In this document: positions 6,706-25,762 of the stretch, piece by piece
How the letters are laid out: each line of letters begins with the position of its first letter
How positions within the stretch are numbered: the first letter of the stretch is position 1
Assembly: GCA_014729675.1 (NCBI GenBank)
Contig: WJJM01000014.1
Span: 1 to 33,247 of the forward strand
Source: Candidatus Woesearchaeota archaeon
GTDB taxonomy: Archaea; Nanobdellota; Nanobdellia; Woesearchaeales; WJKL01
Reading direction: 5' to 3'
DNA length: 33,247 nt
Translations under genes and position numbers: made by a program
The notes under the pieces: generated by a model
Told to the model about the DNA's origin: nothing
The model's input: only the letters and a program-made list of their open reading frames with translations
The model's database searches: none

Positions 6706-9700
6706 TCATACATCTTCAAGGCTGTGTGCTGTATGGTATCCTGATACAAGATTAAGGTCTCCTGAAGATGTTCTTATTATCTTATCTTCTTTGTACAGCC
6801 TGTATCTGATATAATAATCTCCTGCAAAATCATCTGTATATTCATAAGTGAATGCAAACAGTTCTGTCTTTTTCGGGCCTATTTTGTAAGGGCCGTAGAT
6901 TTCAGATGCTAATGTATTTGGGCCTCCAAACATGGACATGAATAGTCCTGACAATGATGATGAAGGCCTATAAGATACTTCTGGCTCTGAGTTTATGTCA
7001 AATTCTACAGAATAATCTCCTTCTTCATCTTCCTGGTTAGATATAAGGATATAGACATCTGCAGTCCTTGTATTATTGTGCACATCAACCAGCACCAGGA
7101 ATTCTGAGGTGTTTATCCTTATAGGTACCGTCTCCTCATATATTGTCTGGCCGTAGGATTGGAGTTTGAAAGTGAGACCGATCATCCTTTCAGTCCTTAC
7201 TAATGGAGTCTTTAAGTTTATGTCAAAGTCTATAGACTCTCCAGGCCTTAGTGAATCGTAGCCTTTTGAATCTGAAACACCCCATCTCAAAAGTGCAGGC
7301 TCTCTTATGAAATCCTTCAGTATCCAGCCTGTAAGTCTTATGAAATCCCAGCCAAGGATCTTTCTTGGATGCAATATTACAGGGGGCTTTTCTTCTGTCT
7401 CAGCCCTGTCAACAGCTACACTTATATTTGAAATGGTTGAATTTCCCCTGTTCGTGAACCTTACTGAAAGTTTTTTATCCTCTCCTGAAAATGCAGAATC
7501 AGGAGCCTTATATTCATATCTTGTTATCTTCCTTATCTGGTCAAGCTGCCTGTCTGAATAACGAGGAACAACCCTCTCTTCTCCTGTTTCAGGATCTATT
7601 ATCACTTCTTCTTCCTCAGGCTCTATCACTTCAGGAGGTGGCATCTCTGGAGGTATTATCTCTGGTAATTCCGGCTCTTCAGGAGGTATTACTATATCAG
7701 GGGTTCTTGTTCCACCGCCTCCTCCGCCAGTATCATCTGAACCTCCAAATCCTTCATCTATGCTTCCATCGCAATCATCATCAACACCATTCTCTATCTC
7801 TGCAGCTCCAGGATTTATAGAAGCGTTAGAATCATTGCAGTCAACTGGTCCGCAAAGGCCGCCTTCTATCGCATAGCTGTCATTGTCTGCGTCTGTACAA
7901 GATATGATATTCAGGGTATTGCTGCAAAGCTCTGCTCCGTCCTGAAATCCGTCATTTGGGGTTATGCATGCCTGCCAGATATCTCCTGCAGAAGTCTCTT
8001 GAGAGGAGATCTTGTCTGTCCTGTTATCATACAGGAATTCTATCTGTTCAGGAGACAAGGCTGTTGAATATATCCTTATATCATCAATGGTTCCGTTGAA
8101 TCCTCTGTCTGTAAACTGATCATCATAACCTATTGTCCAGTTTGCAGGGACAGGCATTATCTCGTTCCACTGGCTTAGGTTTCCGCCACATATCGGCCTT
8201 TCAATGCCGTTTATATACATGCTAACGTTATTGTTGCCTGCAGAAAAGTATTTCCATGTCACTGCTATGTGTGCCCACTGACCTTTTGATGAGACTGCTG
8301 CAAAATCCACTGCTGCAAATGACTGATAATTGGTTGTGCCTTTTTCAGGCCAGAAGAAAAATGAATTATTGCTTCCGCAGTCGCTTGAGAATGCTATCTC
8401 TATGCCTCTTGCACCTGTTCCGTTGGAAGGTTCAAGTATGTTCTTATTTGTTCCGTCATCGTTCTCAAACTCTTCAGGCTTGACCCATGCTGTGAATGTT
8501 CCTTCTGAAAGGTTGAAATCAAGCTTTCCCTGTCCCTGCACGATTATACTGTCTGAGTCTGGTCCTCTGTCTTCTCCGTCAAATGAGTATGCGCCTTTTC
8601 CATCATAGCCGGCTGTTAATGAATATGCTGCCTTATGGACTCTTGCATCATTGTCCTCTGAATATTCTTTGGCAAAGGTGGAATTTGAAGATTCAAAAGG
8701 AAGTATGAGCTCTTCAAAACTGCTGCTGTTTCTTTTCCATGATATAATATTCTTTACAGGATTTGAATCTGAAGTTGACTGATTATAGACTGTAATGTTC
8801 TCCTGAGTAAGGTTGGTACCTAAAGACGAATTAAGTATTGGTTTTAATTGTGTCGGAGGATTTGAATCAAGATAGAATATTCTTGTCTCTGATGTATTTG
8901 AATTACCTGAATCATCAGAGCAAGTTATATTCCATTGATATGTTCCGTCTGCAAAAGATACTGAATGGGCTGCAGGTGTTGCATTTGGCGATGAAACTGA
9001 TGCATTTACAGTTCCATCTATAGTCAGATTGCAGTCAAGACTGCTGTCCAGATCGTCTGTAGCTGTCCAGTTGAAAGTTATGCTTGATGATGTTGTATAG
9101 TATTCATCATCAGGAGCATTTAGCTGAACAGAAGGAGGAACAGTATCATTGGCACTAGTAAGATTTACAATAAATGTCCTGTTTTCAGTCTGGTTAGAGT
9201 TTTCTAAGCTGTCATTGCACCAAACCCAATAGAGGTATTCATCTTCTGTCAAATTGACAACTGTATAATATGCAAAAGTATCTGCATCATTGTTGTTTAT
9301 GCTCATAGGATATTCTATAACTGCTTTTTCCTCTGGGCCATAGGATATCAGAGAATCTGAACCTGAAAGATATGATGCATTTATCCATGAATGTGAACGG
9401 GATGTGTTGGATATCCTTGCTTCATCTATAAGTCCTGGGAATCTTCTGTCTGAATGTGCGTCTTCTCCTCTGCCGATGTAAAGATCATCTGTCTGGACAT
9501 TTGTACTCTGGTTGAAGTTCAAAGAATTGTTGTCTTCCTGCCCGTCTATATAGAGCCTTACTTTTCCTTCAGATTTATTATAGACAGCTGCAAGATAATA
9601 CCATGTTTTGGTGGATAATGTTGTGTTTGATATGAGATTAGCATTATTACCTCCATAGGACATGACAAAATCAACAAGATCATCTTTTATCCTAAAACTG

Positions 9701-12039
9701 TATTGATCATCTCCTGCCCAATTATCATCTCCTTTATCTATTATCTTTTCTTGAGTAGAACCAAGAGAACTTTCTCTGTAGACCCATGCTTCAAAACTTT
9801 TACTGCCCAGGATATTCAACGAAGCGTGATTTGAGACTACTATCCTGTCTGAATTGCTGTCAAAATCATAAGAACCATCTATCTTACCTGATGAGTTGAA
9901 TGATGCATCTGTATTAGTGCCGTTATTGATGCCTGTTGAATCATTTATCTGGCCTGACTGCTCTTCGAGATGATGGACCATAACATACTTGCTGCTCCAG
10001 ACATCTGATGCATCTTCTGATGCATTGTTTGAGCAGTTATAGTAAAGATATATATAATCTGACAAAGATGGGTCTATCTGAGGGACTTTTACCCAGACAA
10101 ATGAATCTCCTGAACTATCCCATGACTCCATCTCATGAGACAATAATGTTGAATCATCTGCATCGTAAAATCTTATGCCTTCTTTTCTTGCTTTTGAATA
10201 GTTTATATTAGTGGAGTCAAGCTTTATCAATCCAGGGAAATCTACAAGAGCTTCAGAACCCCATGGTGTATTAAATGTGAGTTTTTTTCTATGGGAACAG
10301 TTATAATCTGCCCAAGGATCCCAGTTAAGTATGCATGATGACAGATTTTTATCTGCAGTTATGTTTATAGTTGCATAGGTCTTGTTTATGGTAGATCCAT
10401 TTGAAGGAGTTGGAGCTGTAAAAGTCATATTGATTTCTGAAGGCTGTATCTCCTGGCTGCTTATGCTAATAAATCCTTCAGGATCTATGATGTTCTGATA
10501 TGTAGTGTTTATCCAGTTGCTGTCCAAAGAAAAGTTCATTATCCTGACTTCATCTATCTGGCCATCGAAATAATCTGTAAGGCCTCTTCCATCAGTCCTT
10601 CTAACGCCAATATCAACAGCGCTTGATGTTGAGGCATTTCCAGCTGTTGTGCCTGCCTGAGTTCCATTAAGTTTTCCATCTACGTAGATCTCAAGATCAG
10701 TATCTTTTCTTATGCCCACTATATGATACCATGTTCCATCAGTCAACACTGCATCTGAAGTTACTGACTGAACATTATTTCCAGCAATTTCATAGCTAAA
10801 AACTCCACTTCCTCCGGCACCTAGAGAAAGCTGATATGTTTCATACTGGCCGTTGTCTTTCTTTTCAATGATAGTCTTGTCTGCAGTTGTTGTCTCTATC
10901 CATGCAGAGACTGCTATATGGGTTCCGTTGCCGTTAAGATGATTGCCTGAAATGTCTGTTATATGATCATCTCCTGAGATATTTAATGATCCATCTAAAA
11001 TGCCTTCTATCTTTTCATCCCCTTCGAAATTTACAGCATTCCCATGGGCAGAATATTTGCTTGAATCATTCCTGTCTAAAGTTCCTGATTCAGAAAGATG
11101 CCAAACTCCAAGGAAATTAGAGTTCCACACTGATGATGGATCCTGATTATCAAGGGCAGCAGGATTTCCATAATATATGTATATGGTATTATTGGCTGTT
11201 GAATTAAGATAAGGCATATTTACCCAGATCTCAGCATTTTCTGATGTAGAGTCCCATCTTTCTAGTTCATAACTTAAGTTGTTGTTTGATTCGTCTGTGA
11301 ATCTTATGTCCTCTCCATCTGATTTGGCATCTGAAAAGTTAAAATTGCTTGAGTTAAGCTTTATGAAAAGAGGAAAATCCTGAAGGTCTGCAGCAATCTT
11401 ATTATCAGATATGACTATCTCTTTTCTGTAATCCCAATCATCATCCCACCAGCTTGATCCTGAGATTGAAGCTCCTGAAGTTTGTGATTGGCCAGAACTG
11501 CCTGATGTGCCCATCAAAGGAAGATTTGATGATGAGCCTGATCCTAAAACTGATATCTCCCGGATGTTAAAGATGTTATCATTGAATTCTGAACTTAGAG
11601 TGTATGTTTTCTGATCTGGAGGAGTTAAGACTGAATAGCTTATCTCTGCTGTGCGGTTTACATCTTCAATAATCCATTCAAGCTTAAAATGATCATCATC
11701 ATAGACAGATACCTCTGCTCCGCCTGAATCTGTTATTGTCCAGTCTGAAGGATATATCTCTGCTATGGTCATATCAGGCATGTATCCTGAGACTGATATG
11801 TCCAATGTGATCGATGCTTCAGTAGATGAAGGTATGGAATTGTCGCTGCATCCTGCACATGATATTGTCATTTCTACAGATATAGGGCCTGATTCCCCTA
11901 TGAAATACCCTGTTAAAGATGGATCAACGATTGTTAAGATCAGTATAGTGGCTGATAAAAATATAAGGAACAGTCTGACAGAATAAGGCAGGCTCTGTAT
12001 ATGCCTATACAATCCATCAATATATCTTTTGAATGTCAT
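6706..12039 (-). CDS. giant surface protein (1777 aa): N-terminal TM, 2x DUF2341, at least 3 LamG/concanavalin A-like domains, MopE-like motif, Pro/Glu stalk
   Basis: WWDDDWDYRKEIVISDN...FPLFIKLNSSNFNFSDAKSDGEDIRFTD (DUF2341); AWVYRESSLG...YYLAAVYNKSEGKVRLYIDGQ and similar (LamG); DCNDSNASINPGAAEIENGVDDDCDGSIDEG (MopE-like). ATGA overlap with 1589-aa gene. Confidence 0.93.
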   Translation of the reverse strand: MTFKRYIDGLYRHIQSLPYSVRLFLIFLSATILILTIVDPSLTGYFIGESGPISVEMTISCAGCSDNSIPSSTEASITLDISVSGYMPDMTIAEIYPSDWTITDSGGAEVSVYDDDHFKLEWIIEDVNRTAEISYSVLTPPDQKTYTLSSEFNDNIFNIREISVLGSGSSSNLPLMGTSGSSGQSQTSGASISGSSWWDDDWDYRKEIVISDNKIAADLQDFPLFIKLNSSNFNFSDAKSDGEDIRFTDESNNNLSYELERWDSTSENAEIWVNMPYLNSTANNTIYIYYGNPAALDNQDPSSVWNSNFLGVWHLSESGTLDRNDSSKYSAHGNAVNFEGDEKIEGILDGSLNISGDDHITDISGNHLNGNGTHIAVSAWIETTTADKTIIEKKDNGQYETYQLSLGAGGSGVFSYEIAGNNVQSVTSDAVLTDGTWYHIVGIRKDTDLEIYVDGKLNGTQAGTTAGNASTSSAVDIGVRRTDGRGLTDYFDGQIDEVRIMNFSLDSNWINTTYQNIIDPEGFISISSQEIQPSEINMTFTAPTPSNGSTINKTYATINITADKNLSSCILNWDPWADYNCSHRKKLTFNTPWGSEALVDFPGLIKLDSTNINYSKARKEGIRFYDADDSTLLSHEMESWDSSGDSFVWVKVPQIDPSLSDYIYLYYNCSNNASEDASDVWSSKYVMVHHLEEQSGQINDSTGINNGTNTDASFNSSGKIDGSYDFDSNSDRIVVSNHASLNILGSKSFEAWVYRESSLGSTQEKIIDKGDDNWAGDDQYSFRIKDDLVDFVMSYGGNNANLISNTTLSTKTWYYLAAVYNKSEGKVRLYIDGQEDNNSLNFNQSTNVQTDDLYIGRGEDAHSDRRFPGLIDEARISNTSRSHSWINASYLSGSDSLISYGPEEKAVIEYPMSINNNDADTFAYYTVVNLTEDEYLYWVWCNDSLENSNQTENRTFIVNLTSANDTVPPSVQLNAPDDEYYTTSSSITFNWTATDDLDSSLDCNLTIDGTVNASVSSPNATPAAHSVSFADGTYQWNITCSDDSGNSNTSETRIFYLDSNPPTQLKPILNSSLGTNLTQENITVYNQSTSDSNPVKNIISWKRNSSSFEELILPFESSNSTFAKEYSEDNDARVHKAAYSLTAGYDGKGAYSFDGEDRGPDSDSIIVQGQGKLDFNLSEGTFTAWVKPEEFENDDGTNKNILEPSNGTGARGIEIAFSSDCGSNNSFFFWPEKGTTNYQSFAAVDFAAVSSKGQWAHIAVTWKYFSAGNNNVSMYINGIERPICGGNLSQWNEIMPVPANWTIGYDDQFTDRGFNGTIDDIRIYSTALSPEQIEFLYDNRTDKISSQETSAGDIWQACITPNDGFQDGAELCSNTLNIISCTDADNDSYAIEGGLCGPVDCNDSNASINPGAAEIENGVDDDCDGSIDEGFGGSDDTGGGGGGTRTPDIVIPPEEPELPEIIPPEMPPPEVIEPEEEEVIIDPETGEERVVPRYSDRQLDQIRKITRYEYKAPDSAFSGEDKKLSVRFTNRGNSTISNISVAVDRAETEEKPPVILHPRKILGWDFIRLTGWILKDFIREPALLRWGVSDSKGYDSLRPGESIDFDINLKTPLVRTERMIGLTFKLQSYGQTIYEETVPIRINTSEFLVLVDVHNNTRTADVYILISNQEDEEGDYSVEFDINSEPEVSYRPSSSLSGLFMSMFGGPNTLASEIYGPYKIGPKKTELFAFTYEYTDDFAGDYYIRYRLYKEDKIIRTSSGDLNLVSGYHTAHSLEDV

Positions 12040-15000
12040 CTTTTGCCTGTTTTTTTCTTAGTTTTTTTAGATCTTTTTTTAGTGGACCTTTTAGTCTTTT
12101 TCTTAAGTTTTTTGGATTTTTTTCTTGCTGATCTTTTCTTTTTTACCTCTGCAAGAGGTGACAACAAGAATATTATGGCTAGAATTATTATCAATATCCA
12201 CCAATAGCTGCATATATACATAAATCTCCCATAATCTTTTCCAAGGAATATGCAATCTGATATATGGGCTCCATTTTCATAATCAACCTGTTTTTCAGTT
12301 TTTTTAGCAGGTTCTGTTTCTATTGGCTCTTCTGTTTCAAGAGTCTCTTCAACAGGGCATTCACCACAATCTTCTGGACAGTTGCTGCAGTCTTCCCCTA
12401 CTGAAGAGGCTGTTGTACATATCCCATCTCCGCAGTAGATGTCTGAACCATAGGATGATCCAGATATTTGGACAGCTTCTCCTTGTTTAGCTGGTGATAT
12501 TGTACCTTTTATTCCAGAGTATGTCAGATTTTCTACTTTTATCCAGTTTCCAAGGTCTGTGCAGGTTATACTTCCTTTTGTATAGCCTGCAGAGTTTCCC
12601 AGGCAGGTTGTAAAGTCTGTCTCATTATTGCCAGTACAATCATTTGTTATCTGCGCTACTTGAGAGATCTCATCATCTTTTACACATAAGCTTATGAAAT
12701 TGTTGTCTTGTATGAACAATGTTTTTGTCTCTCCTGGAAGGAGCTGTGATGAAAGATTTACAGCTATCCCTTGATTAGTTCCTGTGTTTATTATCTCTAT
12801 GGACACTTCAGACAAATATATCTTTGAAGTGTTTGAAAAGTTATGAGTGAAGTTCATGAGAATATTGGCTCCATCATAAAATCCTAATGTATTTGTTCCA
12901 GACCAAGAGTTTCCATCTATGTCTGTATTGTTGTTTACTTTTATATCTAAGTTTATTCCTGACTGGGAAACATCATCTTCATTGAAGATAAGATAATCTT
13001 CATCATCCGCTTTGTTGTCCTGATCTATATCTTCAAAGATATAGAATGATGCTTTTTCAGTATCATTTGTGTTGTTTGATGAATCTTTTGCTATTATCGT
13101 TATGTTGTAATCTGCAATTATAGAGGTATTTGAAAAAGTTCCTGTGTAAAGTCCATTGTTTTTGTTTAAAGTTATAGTCTGGAATGATGTGTTCCAGGTT
13201 ATGTTTGCCTTTACTTCAGTTATGCTGTCATAATAAGGATCTATAACTGTTGCGTTTATGCTTATTGTTGAGTTTTGCGAGAAGTTTTTGTTGTTTGGCT
13301 GGACATTTGTTACACTTGGATTTGAAATATCTAATATATTGAAACTTCCGCTTGTTGTATTGCTGTTTCCTGCATTGTCTGTTGCATTTATAACTATGTT
13401 ATAATTTCTAGGGAGGAGTGTTTCCTGGAAGTTATTTTTGTAATACCATTGTGTTCCATTGAAAATTAACTGGATAGTTGTTTTTGTTGAATTTGGGTAT
13501 GTGATTGTTGCTGTAACTGTTGCATTTTCATTGGTTTCTATATTGAATGGAACTGTATCATTTTGATTATAGTTTCCTGATGGAGTTGTTATTGTTATTG
13601 ATGGCGGAGTTGAATCAATACAGTTGTTATCATTGCTGTCTGTATCTCCATCACAGTCATTATCTAATGTATCTGCGCAAGAGGATTCTGGATCTTCATA
13701 GTTTGCTATTCCTGTGTAATCATTCTGCCATGAGCCTGCTGTGCATGATTTTTTAGAGCCGATGCATACTCCTGCCTGCTTGTCATTGTTTGGAGGAGCT
13801 TCTCCTGAGCCGTCTGCTGTTGTTCCATTGCAATCATCGTCAATACCATTGCAGATATCAGAAGCAGCAGGGTTGATGGATGTATTAGTGTCATTGCAGT
13901 CATTTCCCTGTACTGTTGTACAGTTTATAGGGACGCAGTTGTATGTACTGCAGGAGCCGTCTGATGTAGAGTCTATGTATGTGTCTGTATCATTATCGCA
14001 GTAATATGTTAATGTTGGGCAGACTCCTCCTTCGTCTATGTTAGTATCGCAGTTGTCATCTACATTGTTGCATGTTTCATTTGCTCCTGGGTTGATGGAT
14101 GCATTAGTGTCATTGCAGTCATCTCCATCAAAAGCACATCCATCTGAAATATTGCAATTAGGACATACTCCGTATCCATCTCCATCATCGTCATCACACA
14201 CAGCTGTCTGAAGTGTTGTAAAATTAAAATATCCTGTTGTGTTGCAGTTGTTATCTGAATCACATGAAGTTACATTGTAATAGTATAACGTGTTGTTAGT
14301 TAGTGATGTTAGTTGGATAAAATGGCTGGTTGTTGAGTCATCTAATGGTTCTGTTGTTCCTAAACTTGTTGTTGTTCCATAGTTTACACTTGAATTTGCT
14401 AATTCGTTAGTGTTCCATGTTATGTTTGCTGATTGGTTTGTTATATCTGTTGCGTTTACATTTGTTATTGCTGGAGATGTCATATCAGTTACATTAAAAC
14501 TCTCTGAAGTAGAGTTCTGATTTCCAAAAGTATCGTTTGCTTTCAAATATATATCATATGTTCCTTGAGATGTAAGATTAGATGGATCAAGGGTTATAGA
14601 GCCGGATGATGATGCAGATTCATATAATATTGTCCCGTTTGGATATGTAATGTTGAATAAAGCTGTATCCAGATTTGTATCTGATGCAGTCCAGTTTATG
14701 ACAATAGAATCCACATTAAACTCTAAAACTGATGTATTCTTCCATATGCTTAATGACGGATCTGTGTTGTCTGCTTGGCCTATTGTTCCGCCTGATACAA
14801 AATTGTTCATGTTCATCAGATTGTTATAATCAGCTTTTAGCCATGCGTCAGAACGCTGAACCTCTGAAAATCGTACTTCAGAGTATATGCCATTTGCACA
14901 GCGATTACTCGCACGATTAACGTTGACACGCCATGCATCGAACAGTGAATCACCGCCATTATCATACGTCGTACCGTAAGCAGTACCGTCACGCCAGAAT

Positions 15001-16805
15001 TCCAGAACGTGACTACTGTTTTGCGTCATGGCATAATAATGCCAGTCTGTGTCCTTAAAATTAGTCGATAATTCCCAACCAGTGCCATCATCCTCGGTGC
15101 CCCTATAGGATAATCCGTATGAGTTAAAGCTATTGAGAACTGAATGATCTACCTGCCATGTGTTCCTATTGGTTGACGATCTGCCTGTATTAACAGTCGA
15201 TACATATCCTGCAGCATGAACATTGGCAATTGACGTAACCTTAGTAAGAGCTTCCCACGTTACCTGTGAAAAAGACTCCTCACTTGCAAATTGGTACTCT
15301 GCATACCGCCCCAGAGTTGCATCATCTGTATTGCCATCAAACTGCCAAGCATACCCAACACCACCAGTAACTCTTGTTACACTGCCTGTTCCACCCGCAA
15401 CAATAGCAAGGTCATCACCGTTGCTTGTCCGATCCTCAGCATCCCCAGATGTTGCCTCTTTGAAGATGTACACAGCCCTATGGTCGCTGTCATAAGCATT
15501 ATACTGACCGTAAGTGCTTCCTGCTGAAGGCTGTGAAGCTGTACTGTTTCCCCAGTACATCCATATAACTGTATCTTGTGTACTTGATACATTGGGGACA
15601 AGAACTGCAATCTCCATGTCTGCAGAAGAAGGATCATTGTCTGTAGAAAATGTCCTTATATCTATGGCTAACCTGTTTTCTCCATCATCTGTAAATCTTA
15701 TGTCTCCTCCTCCATTTAATGCAGAAGAGTTTCCATCAGCATCAAGAGGGCTGTTGGATGATTGCAATCCACTTACATTGTGAGTTAAGATCAAAGTCCA
15801 ATTCTTAAGGTCTGAATCTATATAATCATGATCAATAGTAAAGTTCATCCTGTGAGGGAATGATAGGTTCCACCATCCTGATTCTCCAAATCCTGGATCA
15901 TCTGGAGTCAATGTAAAGGTATATTCCTGCCCTTGAACAAGATTGTCTTTAAACAATATCCATTCTCCGAAACAGGATTGTTCTGTAAAATTCCATTCCC
16001 TGCATTTGTATAATTTTGTACCTTTTGCTGTTACTGTAACTGTGGCATTTGTGAAGTTTAGGTTTGTAGGGTCAATAGCATAAAGTTGCAGGTATCCTGG
16101 GTTTTTTTCTGTTTCAGTCAGATCATCAAGATTTATATCCTCAGAAAATGTTTCATAAAACTCCATCTTTTTGAACTCTATCTCTTTTACAGGATGTTCT
16201 GAAGGCTTTACTTTTATATTGTATTCTCCTTCATCGAGTTCTATTGGTTCTTCGCTTTGCTTTACTGCTTTTGTCTCATCTGTCAGGCTGTCTATTATCT
16301 CCATGTCTGCATCAACAGTATTGTTTCCTGCATCTTTTACTGCAGAAGTTATGTTTACTTTCCTTGCCTGACCCAACTCAAAAGCTTCTGTATGTGAGCC
16401 AACTAAGATCCTGAAATATTCATTGTTATAATCACGTATCTTTAATGTTACTCTCTCATGGCCTACAGACATATCTTTATCCAGAGTGTAATTTTTTATC
16501 CTTCCTTTTACAGATATAGGCAGAAGCTTATTGTAATCATGATGGAATATTACTGTCAATATTTTTGTCTGATCATCATAAGAAGTTGAGTCAAGTATAG
16601 CGTCATATCTTGCGTCTTCTTTAATCTTTTTACATAATGTGTAATCTGTACTATTTAATGTATCCTCTTTAGCTATGAAATATCCTGTTATATCTGAAGT
16701 GAAGAGATATACAAAAGATAATACTAAGAATAACGCTAAAACAGCTAAAAAAATATTTTCATTTCTCTTGATAGAGTATTTTTTACGGATTTTAAGATTT
16801 AACAC
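12036..16805 (-). CDS. giant surface protein (1589 aa): N-terminal TM, shared N-terminal module, DUF2341 + LamG-like, FN3, MopE-like repeats, Ig-like, C-terminal TM and polybasic tail
   Basis: WWNLSFPHRMNFTIDHDYIDS (DUF2341), DCNDTNASINPGANETCNNVDDNCDTNIDEG, DCNDTNTSINPAASDICNGIDDDCNGTTADG; WWILIIILAIIFLLSP-LAEVKKKRSARKKSKKLKKKTKRSTKKRSKKTKKKTGKR. Confidence 0.93.
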   Translation of the reverse strand: MLNLKIRKKYSIKRNENIFLAVLALFLVLSFVYLFTSDITGYFIAKEDTLNSTDYTLCKKIKEDARYDAILDSTSYDDQTKILTVIFHHDYNKLLPISVKGRIKNYTLDKDMSVGHERVTLKIRDYNNEYFRILVGSHTEAFELGQARKVNITSAVKDAGNNTVDADMEIIDSLTDETKAVKQSEEPIELDEGEYNIKVKPSEHPVKEIEFKKMEFYETFSEDINLDDLTETEKNPGYLQLYAIDPTNLNFTNATVTVTAKGTKLYKCREWNFTEQSCFGEWILFKDNLVQGQEYTFTLTPDDPGFGESGWWNLSFPHRMNFTIDHDYIDSDLKNWTLILTHNVSGLQSSNSPLDADGNSSALNGGGDIRFTDDGENRLAIDIRTFSTDNDPSSADMEIAVLVPNVSSTQDTVIWMYWGNSTASQPSAGSTYGQYNAYDSDHRAVYIFKEATSGDAEDRTSNGDDLAIVAGGTGSVTRVTGGVGYAWQFDGNTDDATLGRYAEYQFASEESFSQVTWEALTKVTSIANVHAAGYVSTVNTGRSSTNRNTWQVDHSVLNSFNSYGLSYRGTEDDGTGWELSTNFKDTDWHYYAMTQNSSHVLEFWRDGTAYGTTYDNGGDSLFDAWRVNVNRASNRCANGIYSEVRFSEVQRSDAWLKADYNNLMNMNNFVSGGTIGQADNTDPSLSIWKNTSVLEFNVDSIVINWTASDTNLDTALFNITYPNGTILYESASSSGSITLDPSNLTSQGTYDIYLKANDTFGNQNSTSESFNVTDMTSPAITNVNATDITNQSANITWNTNELANSSVNYGTTTSLGTTEPLDDSTTSHFIQLTSLTNNTLYYYNVTSCDSDNNCNTTGYFNFTTLQTAVCDDDDGDGYGVCPNCNISDGCAFDGDDCNDTNASINPGANETCNNVDDNCDTNIDEGGVCPTLTYYCDNDTDTYIDSTSDGSCSTYNCVPINCTTVQGNDCNDTNTSINPAASDICNGIDDDCNGTTADGSGEAPPNNDKQAGVCIGSKKSCTAGSWQNDYTGIANYEDPESSCADTLDNDCDGDTDSNDNNCIDSTPPSITITTPSGNYNQNDTVPFNIETNENATVTATITYPNSTKTTIQLIFNGTQWYYKNNFQETLLPRNYNIVINATDNAGNSNTTSGSFNILDISNPSVTNVQPNNKNFSQNSTISINATVIDPYYDSITEVKANITWNTSFQTITLNKNNGLYTGTFSNTSIIADYNITIIAKDSSNNTNDTEKASFYIFEDIDQDNKADDEDYLIFNEDDVSQSGINLDIKVNNNTDIDGNSWSGTNTLGFYDGANILMNFTHNFSNTSKIYLSEVSIEIINTGTNQGIAVNLSSQLLPGETKTLFIQDNNFISLCVKDDEISQVAQITNDCTGNNETDFTTCLGNSAGYTKGSITCTDLGNWIKVENLTYSGIKGTISPAKQGEAVQISGSSYGSDIYCGDGICTTASSVGEDCSNCPEDCGECPVEETLETEEPIETEPAKKTEKQVDYENGAHISDCIFLGKDYGRFMYICSYWWILIIILAIIFLLSPLAEVKKKRSARKKSKKLKKKTKRSTKKRSKKTKKKTGKR
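13870..14130 (-). repeat. tandem MopE-type repeat region in 1589-aa gene
   Basis: gggttgatggatgTattagtgtcattgcagtcat near 13872 and gggttgatggatgCattagtgtcattgcagtcat near 14091; encode DCNDTN(A/T)SINP. Confidence 0.7.
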
Positions 16806-17077
16806 CTTACAAGCACCTCTTTCTTATCGTATCTGCATCTCCAAATTTTGAGGAACTGTTCTACTTCATCAGCATCTTTTTCAGGAACAAGAAGAACAGC
16901 CCTTCCAAGCTGAGTGATATTAAACTCTTTTACAACTCCTGACTTCCCATCACGCCCCTTAAGAGCATAATAGAATCTTACCTTATCTTTTTTCAAAAGA
17001 TGTTCGGTCGAGTAACTAAATAGAAACATAGGTGAATACTTTTTTCTTTCTAAAATAACCTCTTTTTCCCCGCTCAT
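16799..17077 (-). CDS. small uncharacterised protein (92 aa), first gene of the 1589/1777 operon
   Basis: Complete ORF overlapping the 1589-aa start by 7 nt; promoter with four operator-like repeats. No family recognised. Confidence 0.75.
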   Translation of the reverse strand: MSGEKEVILERKKYSPMFLFSYSTEHLLKKDKVRFYYALKGRDGKSGVVKEFNITQLGRAVLLVPEKDADEVEQFLKIWRCRYDKKEVLVRC

Positions 17078-17084
17078 TTAGATA

Positions 17085-17100
17085 TGTTATACTAGTTAAC
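17085..17100. promoter_or_regulatory. operator-like repeat R1 (TGTTATACTAGTTAAC)
   Basis: 16-bp motif with GTTA-N7-TAAC dyad; near the predicted TSS of the 92-aa gene. Confidence 0.75.
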
Positions 17101-17109
17101 TTAATTCAT

Positions 17110-17119
17110 ATATAAATCT
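17110..17119 (-). promoter_or_regulatory. candidate TATA box for the 92-aa/1589/1777 operon
   Basis: Complement reads gatttatata, ~33-42 bp upstream of ATG 17077, between R1 and R2. Confidence 0.45.
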
Positions 17120-17124
17120 TTCTA

Positions 17125-17140
17125 TGTTATATAGGTTAAC
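17125..17140. promoter_or_regulatory. operator-like repeat R2 (TGTTATATAGGTTAAC)
   Basis: 40 bp from R1. Confidence 0.75.
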
Positions 17141-17174
17141 AATAATATAGAGGAGAAAGAAGTAAAATCCACTT

Positions 17175-17190
17175 TGTTATATTGGTTAAC
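17175..17190. promoter_or_regulatory. operator-like repeat R3 (TGTTATATTGGTTAAC)
   Basis: 50 bp from R2. Confidence 0.75.
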
Positions 17191-17214
17191 CTAAAATTAT
17201 TAAATAGTCTTTAA

Positions 17215-17230
17215 TGTTATATTGGTTAAC
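17215..17230. promoter_or_regulatory. operator-like repeat R4 (TGTTATATTGGTTAAC)
   Basis: 40 bp from R3; identical to R3. Confidence 0.75.
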
Positions 17231-17242
17231 AAAAAAGATATC

Positions 17243-17938
17243 TCACTTTTCAACAGAGTATATTATCTTGTCAAGAAGAAGTATTGTACCTTTTTCAACA
17301 TCAAAAACAAAGTCATAAGTGCAGCCATTCATCCCAAAAAGAGCGCAAGTGTCGATGCATTCGTCTTTGAATTCAAGACCTTCTGTGTTCTTTACAAAAT
17401 CAACAAATACTTCTTTATCCTGTCCATGCTTTTTTTCCTCTTCAAGAAGAGCTGCAAATGCCTGGATATCTTTAGAATATTGATCCTCACATCTCTGGTC
17501 AAATTCAGGAAGAATATCTTCTCCTTTTAATGAAAATATTATGTCATCAGATGCTAAAAATGGATTGCTTTCTGTATCGCCTGTCTCTTTTACAGCAAAC
17601 CCTGTTATAGCAGAAAGGCTTGGCTTTTCCTGTTCATTGGAATATATAAGATATGATTCTTCCTCATGCTTCAGATATATGTTTACAGAGCCTTCTCCGA
17701 CTATCTTTCCAGAGACCATCATGCTTTTAATAGGAAGAGGCTGTGAGTCTTTAGAAGAAAGAGAGTATACCTGATCATCAAGAACGATTACTTCCAGATC
17801 TTCCATTGAGTAGAGTGCAGGAACATGCCCTGTCACTGAAGGCTTTGATACAAACAAGAATGTAAAAGTAAAAGAAAGGAACAAAAAAACAGCTATCACG
17901 CTTGCCTTTTCCCATCTGTTAAGACTATCTAATACCAT
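17243..17938 (-). CDS. membrane-anchored extracytoplasmic protein (231 aa)
   Basis: N-terminal TM SVIAVFLFLSFTFTFLFVSKPSVTGHV; C-terminal CIDTCALFGMNGCTYDFVFDVEKG domain. Confidence 0.82.
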   Translation of the reverse strand: MVLDSLNRWEKASVIAVFLFLSFTFTFLFVSKPSVTGHVPALYSMEDLEVIVLDDQVYSLSSKDSQPLPIKSMMVSGKIVGEGSVNIYLKHEEESYLIYSNEQEKPSLSAITGFAVKETGDTESNPFLASDDIIFSLKGEDILPEFDQRCEDQYSKDIQAFAALLEEEKKHGQDKEVFVDFVKNTEGLEFKDECIDTCALFGMNGCTYDFVFDVEKGTILLLDKIIYSVEK

Positions 17939-17939
17939 C

Positions 17940-18662
17940 TTAAAAAAACCATCTTTTTTTATCTGTATGGGGCTTTATGTTTTTTAATCTTTTGTTTATC
18001 TTATCAATATCTTTTTTCCTTGCAGATTCTTTTAGTTTTTTCTTGAGTTTGTCTATCTCTTTCTGCATAGAATCTATCTCTTTTTGCTTTGCAAAATCCT
18101 CTTTTATAGACTCCATCTCAGAAGAGAATCTTTCAAAAGAAGATTCAAGCTTTTTGCTTAATTCTTTGGATTCCCTGAACTCAACATACTGTTTCTGGAA
18201 CTCATTGAAAAGCTGCTCTGTCTTGACTGAATTTTTTTCTATATCTGCATCCAGTTTTTCCAGCTTTCTCAGCTTATCGTCCATCTTTCTGTCAAGTCTT
18301 GAGACTTTGCTGTAATCAAAATGCTGTATCTTTGATTTCATATGCTTCATCTCCTGGACAAGCGTCTCCTGTATTTTTTTTATAGAATCGAGATTAAGCT
18401 TTATGGAATGTATAGAAAGATCATTGTTCTTGAGCTTCTCTATAAAATCAGGCTTTATCGTCTCAAGAAGGGCATCTTCTTTTTTTGAGGATATCTCAAG
18501 GTCTGTCTCTTTTTTCTGAAGGTCAGAGATTGCCTGCTTAAGCCTGCCTATCTTCTCATTGATGTTGTTAAGGTAAGAGTCCTGATTGTCCTTTGCACTG
18601 TTTAGATATTCATATTTTGATTTCAGTTTTTCTATGTCCTGCAGCATCTCTTTTTTCTTCAT
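17940..18662 (-). CDS. coiled-coil protein (240 aa)
   Basis: Heptad-rich throughout, no TM; start overlaps the ATPase stop (ATGA). Confidence 0.85.
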   Translation of the reverse strand: MKKKEMLQDIEKLKSKYEYLNSAKDNQDSYLNNINEKIGRLKQAISDLQKKETDLEISSKKEDALLETIKPDFIEKLKNNDLSIHSIKLNLDSIKKIQETLVQEMKHMKSKIQHFDYSKVSRLDRKMDDKLRKLEKLDADIEKNSVKTEQLFNEFQKQYVEFRESKELSKKLESSFERFSSEMESIKEDFAKQKEIDSMQKEIDKLKKKLKESARKKDIDKINKRLKNIKPHTDKKRWFF

Positions 18663-21283
18663 GTTTTCTGATTACCTCTCTTTTCTTTGCCATATTCATC
18701 GATTATATCTGCTATATCCTGGTCTGATCTTTTATCAGAGGATGGCTGTTTTTCTGGCCTGTTGTTTTCTTCTTTAATCTTTTGAGTGGACTTGTCTCTG
18801 TCTTTTTTGTTATTTCTTCTGGAGCCTGTAGTTTTTCTTTTCTTTGAGCTGAACTTCCTGTTAACTTTGGGGATAAGGCTTTTTAAGTATATATCAGCAA
18901 CGTCAAACTTGCATTCATCTATCTGTTTTTCTGCAAGTTCAAGCTCTACCTTAAGGTCAAAGAGATTCTTTCTTCTTGAGCTCATAGAGCTGATCTTTGA
19001 CTTCAGTTCAGAGATTATCCTGCTGTAGCGGATGTATCTCTGGAGCTTCTCTTTTTCAAGACCTTCTATTGAATGGCGTACCGGCCTGAAAGCCACGAAG
19101 TAAGGCTTGCCGTTGTTATATGAACTGTTGTTGAACAATCCTGTCCCGGTAGGGGATTTATAGATTGCCCTCAATATCTCCTCTCCATACTTGTCCTTTA
19201 CTCTCTGCATATCTTCTCTGTCGTTTGTTCTCATCTGGACCTCTGTAGATATGTTTGACTCTATAGGGCCAATAAGGTCTTTTGTTACCTGAGATATCAG
19301 AACTATTCCTATGCCCCATTTTCTGAATTCCCTTACAGCCCTTTCAAGCTGAGTGTATGCTGCTTTTGAGCCTCCAAACTTAGGCAGGAGCCTATGGACT
19401 TCGTCAAAGACTAGAAGTGTCTTAAGCTTACTGTGCTCTTTAGGCTGTTTTTTGAATATGTCCTTTATAGTTGCTGAGATGAACCTGTTAAGTTCTTTTG
19501 GCTCCAGCTTGTCAAGAAGGATTATATTCAGGCTGCTGCCAAGGCTACCTATATCAAGGGGTTTTCTTGGATGTTCTATGCGATATATGCTGCTCTTGAA
19601 CTGTTTTGCATCCTGTTTTTTCATTCCAAATTCAGGATATCTCTTAAACATGTCCTTTGAGCTGCATCTTTTTGCAAATCCTGTCCATTGTGATGTAGGG
19701 TCAAACACTATCACCGAGACGCCATTGTCTACAGCTTCTTCCACTATGACCTGTGCTGCTATGGTCTTTCCGCAGCCAGTGGATCCTGATATCAAAGAGT
19801 GTGTCTTGAGATCATCCGGGTAGAGGTATGCATAACGGTCTTTTTCAGCTATCTTTCCGATAGCAAGAGAGTTCTTCCCTTTTTTAGGGAGAGATGAGCT
19901 GTCTATACTCAACGAATATCTTCTTCTCTGGGCAAGCTTGACTCTTGAAAGGATGAACACTATCCAGAGTACAGACAAGAGCAAAGCTAACAATGCAAGT
20001 ATGCCTTTTTCTATGTTAAATATCTTCTGGGCATACCATGGGACATCTACCTTGAATTTTGCAAACAAAGGTATCCTCTTTCCTTTGAATTTTGCATCTA
20101 TATTAAGGACGTATGTTCCTGTCTTAAAATTATCAGGGATGTCCAATTCCTTAGGGATTGAAAGAGCATTCTCAAGGGTTATGTTTTCCTCTTCATAGAT
20201 AACTTCGTTTTTCTGCTGGCTTAGGTTTGTTATGTCTGTAGATGCAGCTCCTGTCAGATAACCCATATAATCTGTGTCTAACCCCATGACAAGATATTTA
20301 AGGAAAACATCTTCTGGATCTTCTGTAACCAAAGGTGCTTTTCTTAGGTTAAGCTTAAATCTTAGTGTATCTCCTGGGTTTATCTTTTGGGTAAGTATAT
20401 CAACATCTATGTCTAAAGTTTCAAGTTCGGGCTTTTCAAGATTTTTTATGACCTTGAATGTAATAGGTATTTCTTTGTAGCTTGTGGAAGATATCAGCAT
20501 CAAGGAGCCATAATATTTGCCTATCGGCTTATTGGCTAATGCAAGAAAATCAAGCTCTTTTTCTCCTGGAGGGACCATTATATATTCAGAATCAAGCAAG
20601 ATAGAATCTTTTAGCTCTTTTGACAGTTCTGCCTTAAGGAATACTGTCTCATCTTCATTGTTGGAGAGGGTTATCTTTATGTTCCTGAACTCGTCCTCCT
20701 GCAGCTCTATGAAGAGGTCTTCGATATCTGCATTGAAATCGTCCTGCTGCTCAGTTATGTTTGTCAATCTTTCAATCTCAGCCTGAAGCTCTCTTATCTT
20801 TCTAGAACTGCCTCCACCTCCTCCCCCGCCTCCTGAAGAAGATGTTGAAGAAGGGCATGTTCCGCAGTCAGACTGACAGTTGGCGCATGACTCTCCTGTG
20901 TTGCAGAGATTATCTCCACAGTAAGGGGACAAGGAGATGGTTACTATTGCTGATGAAGTTGAGCCTCCATCTGAGGCAGTTATGTTTGCATAAGTTATTC
21001 CAGTGTCAGACAGAGTGGAGTTCCACTGGCCTGTTGAATTTAAAGGATGTGTAAAGTTTATTGTTATATTGTCATTGTTAGGGTCTGATACAGAATATGA
21101 TAGGTCTACTATATCTCCTGCATCTCCAGTGTAGTTGGAATATTGTATTATTGGTGCTTGATTTGATATGTTGAATGAGCCGGATGTTTTTATAGCATGG
21201 CCTGTTATCACAGTAAAAGCACTTGCAGTACCAGCCAGTATAATTATAAGTACAATATATAACAGTTTGTTTTTTGTTATCAT
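18659..21283 (-). CDS. membrane-spanning HerA/VirB4-type (DUF87-like) ATPase with N-terminal signal/TM and ~450-aa extracytoplasmic domain
   Basis: Signal LLYIVLIIILAGTASAFTVITGHAIK; Cys motif CGDNLCNTGESCANCQSDCGTC; Gly8 linker; TM GILALLALLLSVLWIVFIL; Walker A GSTGCGKT; Walker B TLLVFDEVHRLL; REFRKWGIGIVLISQVTKDL typical of HerA/VirB4-like ATPases. Confidence 0.93.
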   Translation of the reverse strand: MITKNKLLYIVLIIILAGTASAFTVITGHAIKTSGSFNISNQAPIIQYSNYTGDAGDIVDLSYSVSDPNNDNITINFTHPLNSTGQWNSTLSDTGITYANITASDGGSTSSAIVTISLSPYCGDNLCNTGESCANCQSDCGTCPSSTSSSGGGGGGGGSSRKIRELQAEIERLTNITEQQDDFNADIEDLFIELQEDEFRNIKITLSNNEDETVFLKAELSKELKDSILLDSEYIMVPPGEKELDFLALANKPIGKYYGSLMLISSTSYKEIPITFKVIKNLEKPELETLDIDVDILTQKINPGDTLRFKLNLRKAPLVTEDPEDVFLKYLVMGLDTDYMGYLTGAASTDITNLSQQKNEVIYEEENITLENALSIPKELDIPDNFKTGTYVLNIDAKFKGKRIPLFAKFKVDVPWYAQKIFNIEKGILALLALLLSVLWIVFILSRVKLAQRRRYSLSIDSSSLPKKGKNSLAIGKIAEKDRYAYLYPDDLKTHSLISGSTGCGKTIAAQVIVEEAVDNGVSVIVFDPTSQWTGFAKRCSSKDMFKRYPEFGMKKQDAKQFKSSIYRIEHPRKPLDIGSLGSSLNIILLDKLEPKELNRFISATIKDIFKKQPKEHSKLKTLLVFDEVHRLLPKFGGSKAAYTQLERAVREFRKWGIGIVLISQVTKDLIGPIESNISTEVQMRTNDREDMQRVKDKYGEEILRAIYKSPTGTGLFNNSSYNNGKPYFVAFRPVRHSIEGLEKEKLQRYIRYSRIISELKSKISSMSSRRKNLFDLKVELELAEKQIDECKFDVADIYLKSLIPKVNRKFSSKKRKTTGSRRNNKKDRDKSTQKIKEENNRPEKQPSSDKRSDQDIADIIDEYGKEKRGNQKT

Positions 21284-25231: not shown

Positions 25232-25762
25232 TTATCCTGCTGTCTTTAGCTTGTTTTTTGCCCTGTTATGGACTGTCCAGATTGTTTTTTCATCTCTTTG
25301 GATAATGTCTCCTATATCATGATATGAAAGATCATAATTATCTTTTAAGTATGTTACTGTTGATTCCAAGATGCTTAAATTGGTATTTAATGCTGATACA
25401 GGGATGTTGTATCTTGTCTCCTCTGCTTTGAGTTTTTCAGGGAGTTTTTTTACAGCATTTTTGTATGCCTGCCATACTGTCTTATCGGATCTTCCCAACA
25501 AAGCAGCAATCTTCTTATAGCTGTAATCAAGATTTTCCTTCATATATTTTACCTCTGTTTCCAAAGGGGAAAGTTTTTTGTTGAATATTGAACAAGGGAT
25601 CGAGATGTCCTGCTTGAGCTTATTTATCAGGTCTGCAGCAGGAAGATGGTATCTTTCCTTAAGCTTGTTAAGCAGAATCCTGAAAAGCTGGAAATCTTCA
25701 TCATCCTGAAGCCTGGCTTTATTAAAATGCTTTGCTGTATCCTGTTCTTCTTGTTTTTTCAT
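25232..25762 (-). CDS. tandem helix-turn-helix protein (sigma-70 region 4-like repeats), putative regulator (176 aa)
   Basis: LSPLETEVKYMKENLDYSYKKIAALLGRSDKTVWQAYKNAVKKL and LSILESTVTYLKDNYDLSYHDIGDIIQRDEKTIWTVHNRAKNKL. Confidence 0.8.
   Translation of the reverse strand: MKKQEEQDTAKHFNKARLQDDEDFQLFRILLNKLKERYHLPAADLINKLKQDISIPCSIFNKKLSPLETEVKYMKENLDYSYKKIAALLGRSDKTVWQAYKNAVKKLPEKLKAEETRYNIPVSALNTNLSILESTVTYLKDNYDLSYHDIGDIIQRDEKTIWTVHNRAKNKLKTAG

Follow-up and report, generated by a model that had tools for sequence, protein, structure and literature searches.

The window and its giant surface-protein operon

The DNA analyzed here, referred to below as the window, is a stretch of 33,247 nucleotides from a Candidatus Woesearchaeota genome. 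On its minus strand lie three ORFs whose mutual overlaps of a few bases make them look like one operon. The first (16799..17077) encodes a basic 92-aa protein of net charge +6, our proposed regulator, whose fold is predicted with confidence and matches no known fold; we use the name 'YALKGR domain' for the part that it has in common with its longer relatives. The second (12036..16805) encodes a 1589-aa secreted or surface protein with the Pfam domains Cu-binding_MopE, Big_13 and DUF2341, and it begins with a GTG inside the 3' end of the 92-aa gene; the third, a 1777-aa ORF (6706..12039), shares its first 4 bases with the end of the 1589-aa gene. The upstream neighbor, also on the minus strand, is a 231-aa ORF with an N-terminal hydrophobic stretch (17243..17938). 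Elsewhere in the window, an 874-aa ORF (18659-21283) combines a signal-like N-terminus, an extracellular-type region and a HerA/DUF87-type ATPase domain, and would, to judge from these features, be a membrane-anchored HerA-like ATPase within a surface-protein island; a 176-aa protein with sigma-70 region-4-like helix-turn-helix (HTH) units is encoded at 25232-25762.

The 165-bp intergenic region between the end of the 231-aa ORF, which stops just short of the array, and the start of the 92-aa ORF (17078-17242) contains four 16-bp repeats, starting at 17085 (TGTTATACTAGTTAAC), 17125 (TGTTATATAGGTTAAC), 17175 and 17215 (TGTTATATTGGTTAAC), exactly where an earlier note on this sequence had placed them and with the spacings of 40, 50 and 40 bp that it gave. 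All four have the palindromic form GTTA-N7-TAAC. We designate them R1 (17085..17100), R2 (17125..17141, TGTTAWN5WTAACA), R3 (17175..17190) and R4 (17215..17231), none of them being assigned to a strand. The layout is that of two pairs of 40 bp each, R1 with R2 and, distal to the gene, R3 with R4, plus a gap. With up to two mismatches allowed, the window contains these four repeats and no further copy, while 100 dinucleotide shuffles of the window gave a mean of 0.48 matches and never reached four: the repeats are real, exactly placed and far in excess of chance. In the genome from which the window comes (1.44 Mb in 72 contigs), exact matches are confined to this array; the next-best place holds TGTTAAATAGGTTAAC twice, each with one mismatch, at a spacing of again exactly 40 bp; this pair immediately precedes the ATG of a gene for a PLD-family lipoprotein (contig C6). 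Searched for genome-wide and in the orthologous promoters, as the earlier note had proposed, the motif proved to be undispersed in the former and present in the latter.

The spacings in multiples of 10 bp had been taken to set the sites on one helix face. At 10.5 bp per turn, 40 bp amounts to 3.8 turns and the four sites point to 0, 291, 206 and 137 degrees; we therefore abandoned this reading, which requires DNA at 10.0 bp per turn. A CRISPR-like repeat array was also considered and set aside, as there are four palindromic copies in register with a promoter.

A core promoter between paired palindromes

Between R1 and R2, on the minus strand, lie a BRE-like element, GAAAGA (17117..17122), and a TATA box, TTTATATA (17109..17116). 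The stretch between the two dyads ranks first among 66,444 window positions when scored with a core-promoter matrix trained on other loci, the window promoter being left out. The arrangement is a conserved one: in gene-proximal pairs, the 25 bp between the dyads hold BRE and TATA box in a single register, with the TATA box at a fixed column and a T at column 10 in all 22 loci. R2 adjoins the BRE on its upstream side, and R1 covers the expected transcription start of the operon, the ATG (17077) being 8 nt beyond it on the minus strand, a position that R1 also occupies in orthologs. This bears out the earlier placement of R1 near the predicted start and of R2 by the TATA box (BRE/TATA at 17122-17109). 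Sites that overlap or flank BRE, TATA box and transcription start are what is expected of an archaeal core-promoter repressor/operator system. In several operons the ATG directly follows the second dyad, as expected for leaderless archaeal mRNAs. The stretch between R3 and R4 matches the same matrix weakly (rank 2720 of 66,444), too weakly for us to claim a second promoter, and we therefore take R3/R4 as an auxiliary pair. A scan for bacterial promoters and terminators returned nothing of note.

The same geometry bears on the sign of the regulation. The main alternative to repression is that the bound protein activates, its upstream site by the BRE recruiting TBP/TFB; Ptr2, LysM and Ss-LrpB act as activators when bound immediately upstream of the BRE (PMC2995911). 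The partner site, however, spans the region just before and at the transcription start, with the ATG directly after it in several operons, where a block to the polymerase would be expected, and we consider activation rather improbable. It is more doubtful still that the repeats act in RNA, as leader hairpins: GTTAA-N5-TTAAC could pair as a 5-bp hairpin, and pairs also occur at the 3' end of the operon in some MNT loci, but in each pair one of the dyads is located upstream of the TATA box, outside what that promoter transcribes, the fifth pair in the window is T-T, and no Rfam family scored at a meaningful level. We rejected the hairpin reading.

The YALKGR domain, a family related to antitoxin-like proteins

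Sequence searches of Pfam, NCBIfam, PADLOC and PDB gave no match for the 92-aa family. Relatives are nevertheless common, being found in 87 of the 196 genomes of the order and also in other orders of the class. The domain occurs in two forms: it either stands alone, or forms the C-terminal part of minimal nucleotidyltransferase (MNT) proteins of about 190 aa (PF18765/PF01909). The gene downstream of a stand-alone copy usually encodes a protein that has a membrane segment at its N-terminus (33 of the 49 cases with enough sequence); the stand-alone products themselves have a mean net charge of +7.6. In the loci of the MNT form that were read, a gene encoding a small helical protein lies ahead of the MNT gene and overlaps it. 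The YALKGR domain is basic and is the sole part common to the two kinds of loci. We regard it as an undescribed family, apparently akin to the C-terminal domain found in MNT antitoxin-like proteins.

The 92-aa protein itself lacks the MNT nucleotidyltransferase domain for which its longer relatives have PF18765/PF01909 matches; these relatives score below the cut-off of the MntA profile NF047752. No HEPN toxin gene lies beside the 92-aa gene, and no HEPN profile is matched by the helical partner of the MNT relatives. Its likeness to HEPN is one of position only, and we refrained from naming its gene HEPN, a name that the profiles do not support. AlphaFold2, run on 30 sequences, gave a model of pLDDT 90.6 and pTM 0.77 with the element order H-E-H-H-E-E-H-E, in which no HTH is evident, and a Foldseek search of this model against PDB returned no significant match (best E 0.054).

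The closest parallel that we found in the literature is the type VII HEPN-MNT pair SO_3166/SO_3165 of Shewanella oneidensis, in which the MNT antitoxin, lacking any recognized DNA-binding domain, represses its own promoter by binding to it; this promoter carries two palindromes (PMC4621449). In the window, likewise, a protein without a recognized DNA-binding domain, and which would bind, is encoded behind a promoter with palindromes. The palindromes of SO_3166/SO_3165, however, are dissimilar and lie at the -10 and -35 elements of a bacterial promoter, whereas those described here form exact 40-bp pairs around an archaeal TATA box; moreover, the archaeal proteins have an extra C-terminal domain, and the window protein is that domain alone, with neither MNT nor toxin. 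A second parallel is VapB14 of Sulfolobus acidocaldarius, a stand-alone archaeal antitoxin that acts through transcription on biofilm and surface structures (PMC10127717). Like VapB14, the 92-aa protein would be an antitoxin-type protein, with the toxin missing in some species, that acts as a transcription regulator tied to surface structures; VapB, however, has a known N-terminal DNA-binding domain, while the YALKGR family has neither a known profile nor a known fold match.

Recurrence of the arrays and the 40-bp rule

GTTA-N7-TAAC dyads precede orthologs of the 92-aa gene in many Woesearchaeota families, and the array design is found again across Woesearchaeota and, less strongly, outside them. 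Across species the operators lie before the domain's own gene, as expected of an autoregulated gene, whose product would then be the regulator. When the 196 genomes were searched for dyads separated by 22-38 bp, 37 pairs turned up in 20 genomes, against 3 for a reversed control pattern, and nearly all of the 37 had a start-to-start spacing of exactly 40 bp. The gene most often found beside the arrays encodes the YALKGR domain, alone or fused to MNT: it adjoins 19 of 27 array loci. The other 8 have no domain gene beside them (they include PLD-family genes, the ribosomal L3 region and others, one being cut by a contig end). The domain is present in 19 of the 20 array genomes versus 87 of 196 overall (Fisher p = 7e-7).

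We also examined the surroundings of 122 domain genes, where 131 dyads were found versus 6.75 expected by shuffling; part of these loci had been gathered through the array search itself, which biases the proportions upward. MNT-type loci without a GTTA dyad have palindromes of other sequence, likewise 40 bp apart, namely GTTGTAnnnTACAAC, TGTTKGTAnTACnAACA and TTCTTACnnnGTAAGAA. For the five operator classes taken together, the 122 loci gave 64 locus-class hits at 40 bp and none at 38, 39, 41, 42 or 43 bp, with a lesser peak at 57/58 bp that is due mostly to classes C and D. At 31 of the 72 MNT-domain loci and 16 of the 50 stand-alone genes, neither an operator pair nor a dyad of these types was found. 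Classes A-E were defined after inspection and then applied as fixed patterns to another 40 loci, of which 30 came from outside the order. There, 40 bp was again the top spacing (12 versus at most 3), and it occurred in 11 of the 40 loci (4 of 10 within the order and 7 of 30 outside), which suggests that beyond the order the rule either loses strength or is less easily detected. When these held-out loci were scanned for generic palindromes under strict criteria, 40 bp also came first, with at most 5 loci.

Sites for recombination, inversion or a mobile element could likewise produce paired palindromes at the two ends of a cassette, such as are seen around some MNT genes, but they would hardly keep a fixed register with a TATA box or a spacing exact to the base across five sequence classes, and no invertible segment was seen; we give this explanation very little credence.

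Other spacings were observed as well. Some stand-alone loci (L040, L079 and L139) have a second preferred dyad spacing of about 74 bp, or seven helical turns, and in classes C and D a third site follows at 57/58 bp. Four operons of the helical partner and MNT type (L081, L087, L111/L078 and L112/L093) carry a 40-bp operator pair at each end, of which the 3' one overlaps or closely follows the MNT stop codon, at offsets of 235/275, 238/278, 273/313 and 274/314 from the start of the domain. These 3' pairs may be an auxiliary operator, a downstream promoter or a relic. They too are exactly 40 bp apart, with no clear TATA box between them, which argues that the spacing is probably set by a protein assembly and not by the promoter alone.

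The operator follows the domain, not the organism

On a domain tree built from 57 loci, operator class changes 5 times, against a possible minimum of 4 and a mean of 31.2 after shuffling, while the genus label changes 21 times on the same tree. Moreover, 11 of the 12 genera with several loci contain several operator classes. Operators have thus diverged together with the neighboring domain and irrespective of the organism, which speaks against one global regulator. The agreement falls short of proving that the neighbor is the binder, since a promoter is inherited together with its gene.

These observations bear on the view that a separate HTH regulator encoded elsewhere, for example an Lrp-like protein or the 176-aa HTH protein of the island, binds the repeats, the 92-aa protein being a target or co-factor. 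This view draws on the predicted 92-aa fold, which lacks a recognized DNA-binding motif, on the absence of the domain gene from some targets, on a gene with an HTH-like stretch within one array operon (G096), and on archaeal Lrp-type proteins, which bind regularly spaced palindromes (PMC2995911). The autoregulators Ss-LrpB and Ptr2 bind cooperatively to several regularly spaced sites in their own control regions (PMC2995911); the window array has such a series of sites, and binding to it would likewise be cooperative. The Lrp sites, however, are two or three helical turns apart instead of 40 bp, and the 92-aa protein is not Lrp-like by profile and has no HTH in its model; it was not assigned to Lrp/AsnC (N-terminal winged HTH plus RAM domain), given that it has no Pfam or NCBIfam hit and no significant fold match. 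As for the 176-aa protein, which the earlier note had listed as a candidate ligand, a relative lies near arrays in only one genome (G152, locus L105), and the candidate was dropped. The coexistence of different operator classes in 11 of 12 genera, beside different domain copies, means that no single regulator can serve them all, and the domain gene itself adjoins most array loci. We therefore hold a separate HTH regulator to be unlikely. One dedicated transcription factor per operator class, each encoded elsewhere, would still be compatible with the data.

A model of autoregulation

We consider it probable that the repeats are the operators of an autoregulatory circuit, in which the 92-aa protein binds and represses. 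The product of the first operon gene, a stand-alone copy of the MNT C-terminal domain, would bind the palindromes, probably as a dimer, and dimers would join into a larger, rigid assembly across each 40-bp pair. Its presence on R2, next to the BRE, and on R1, at the transcription start, would bar TBP/TFB and RNA polymerase from the TATA box that the two sites enclose. Expression of the giant-surface-protein operon would thus stay low until titration or release of the regulator, and the auxiliary pair R3/R4 would strengthen occupancy. The earlier proposal of a cooperative repressor array with the 92-aa protein as ligand is in this respect supported by the arrays that precede orthologs in other families, by the promoter sandwiched in a fixed register and by the operator tracking the domain, while its cooperativity we infer from the single-base precision of the 40-bp spacing. 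Several points argue against autoregulation: with no evident HTH and no significant PDB match, the predicted structure lends no support to DNA binding; many domain genes, of both forms, lack operators of these types; array loci without a domain gene may reflect either a wider regulon or another binder; and a position beside the BRE is one used by archaeal Lrp-type activators (PMC2995911). About even, in our estimation, are the chances of a more far-reaching proposal, namely that the domain represents an undescribed, non-HTH group of archaeal transcription factors with kinship to the C-terminus of MNT antitoxin-like proteins. Such factors would assemble, exact to the base, on 40-bp palindrome pairs and clamp the core promoter, and their stand-alone branch would have become dedicated to giant surface-protein operons of Woesearchaeota.

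Transcription control in DPANN archaea is little explored, and our literature search for Woesearchaeota together with toxin-antitoxin and HEPN found no paper. The system described here offers a small, testable regulator-operator pair, with five operator classes on which specificity can be tested, and it links antitoxin-like proteins to the surface proteins by which these archaea may contact other cells. Moreover, the exact 40-bp rule makes such promoters findable from sequence alone.

Further array loci

At one locus (L043, G032:C30), the YALKGR domain lies inside a 1441-aa open frame preceded by two dyads, which is possibly a fusion of regulator and giant protein. Three genomes, belonging to two genera, also have arrays in the region ahead of the L3-L4-L23-L2 ribosomal protein operon (L096, L097 and L104 in G014, G096 and G166), a surprising target for an antitoxin-related regulator. 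In the family to which the window belongs, the operator GTTAAATAGGTTAAC lies before or at the start of PLD-family genes (L101 in G000:C6, L102 in G003:C4 and L247 in G002:C74). With the PLD-family genes and the L3 arrays as further targets, the regulator may in some genomes have a small regulon.
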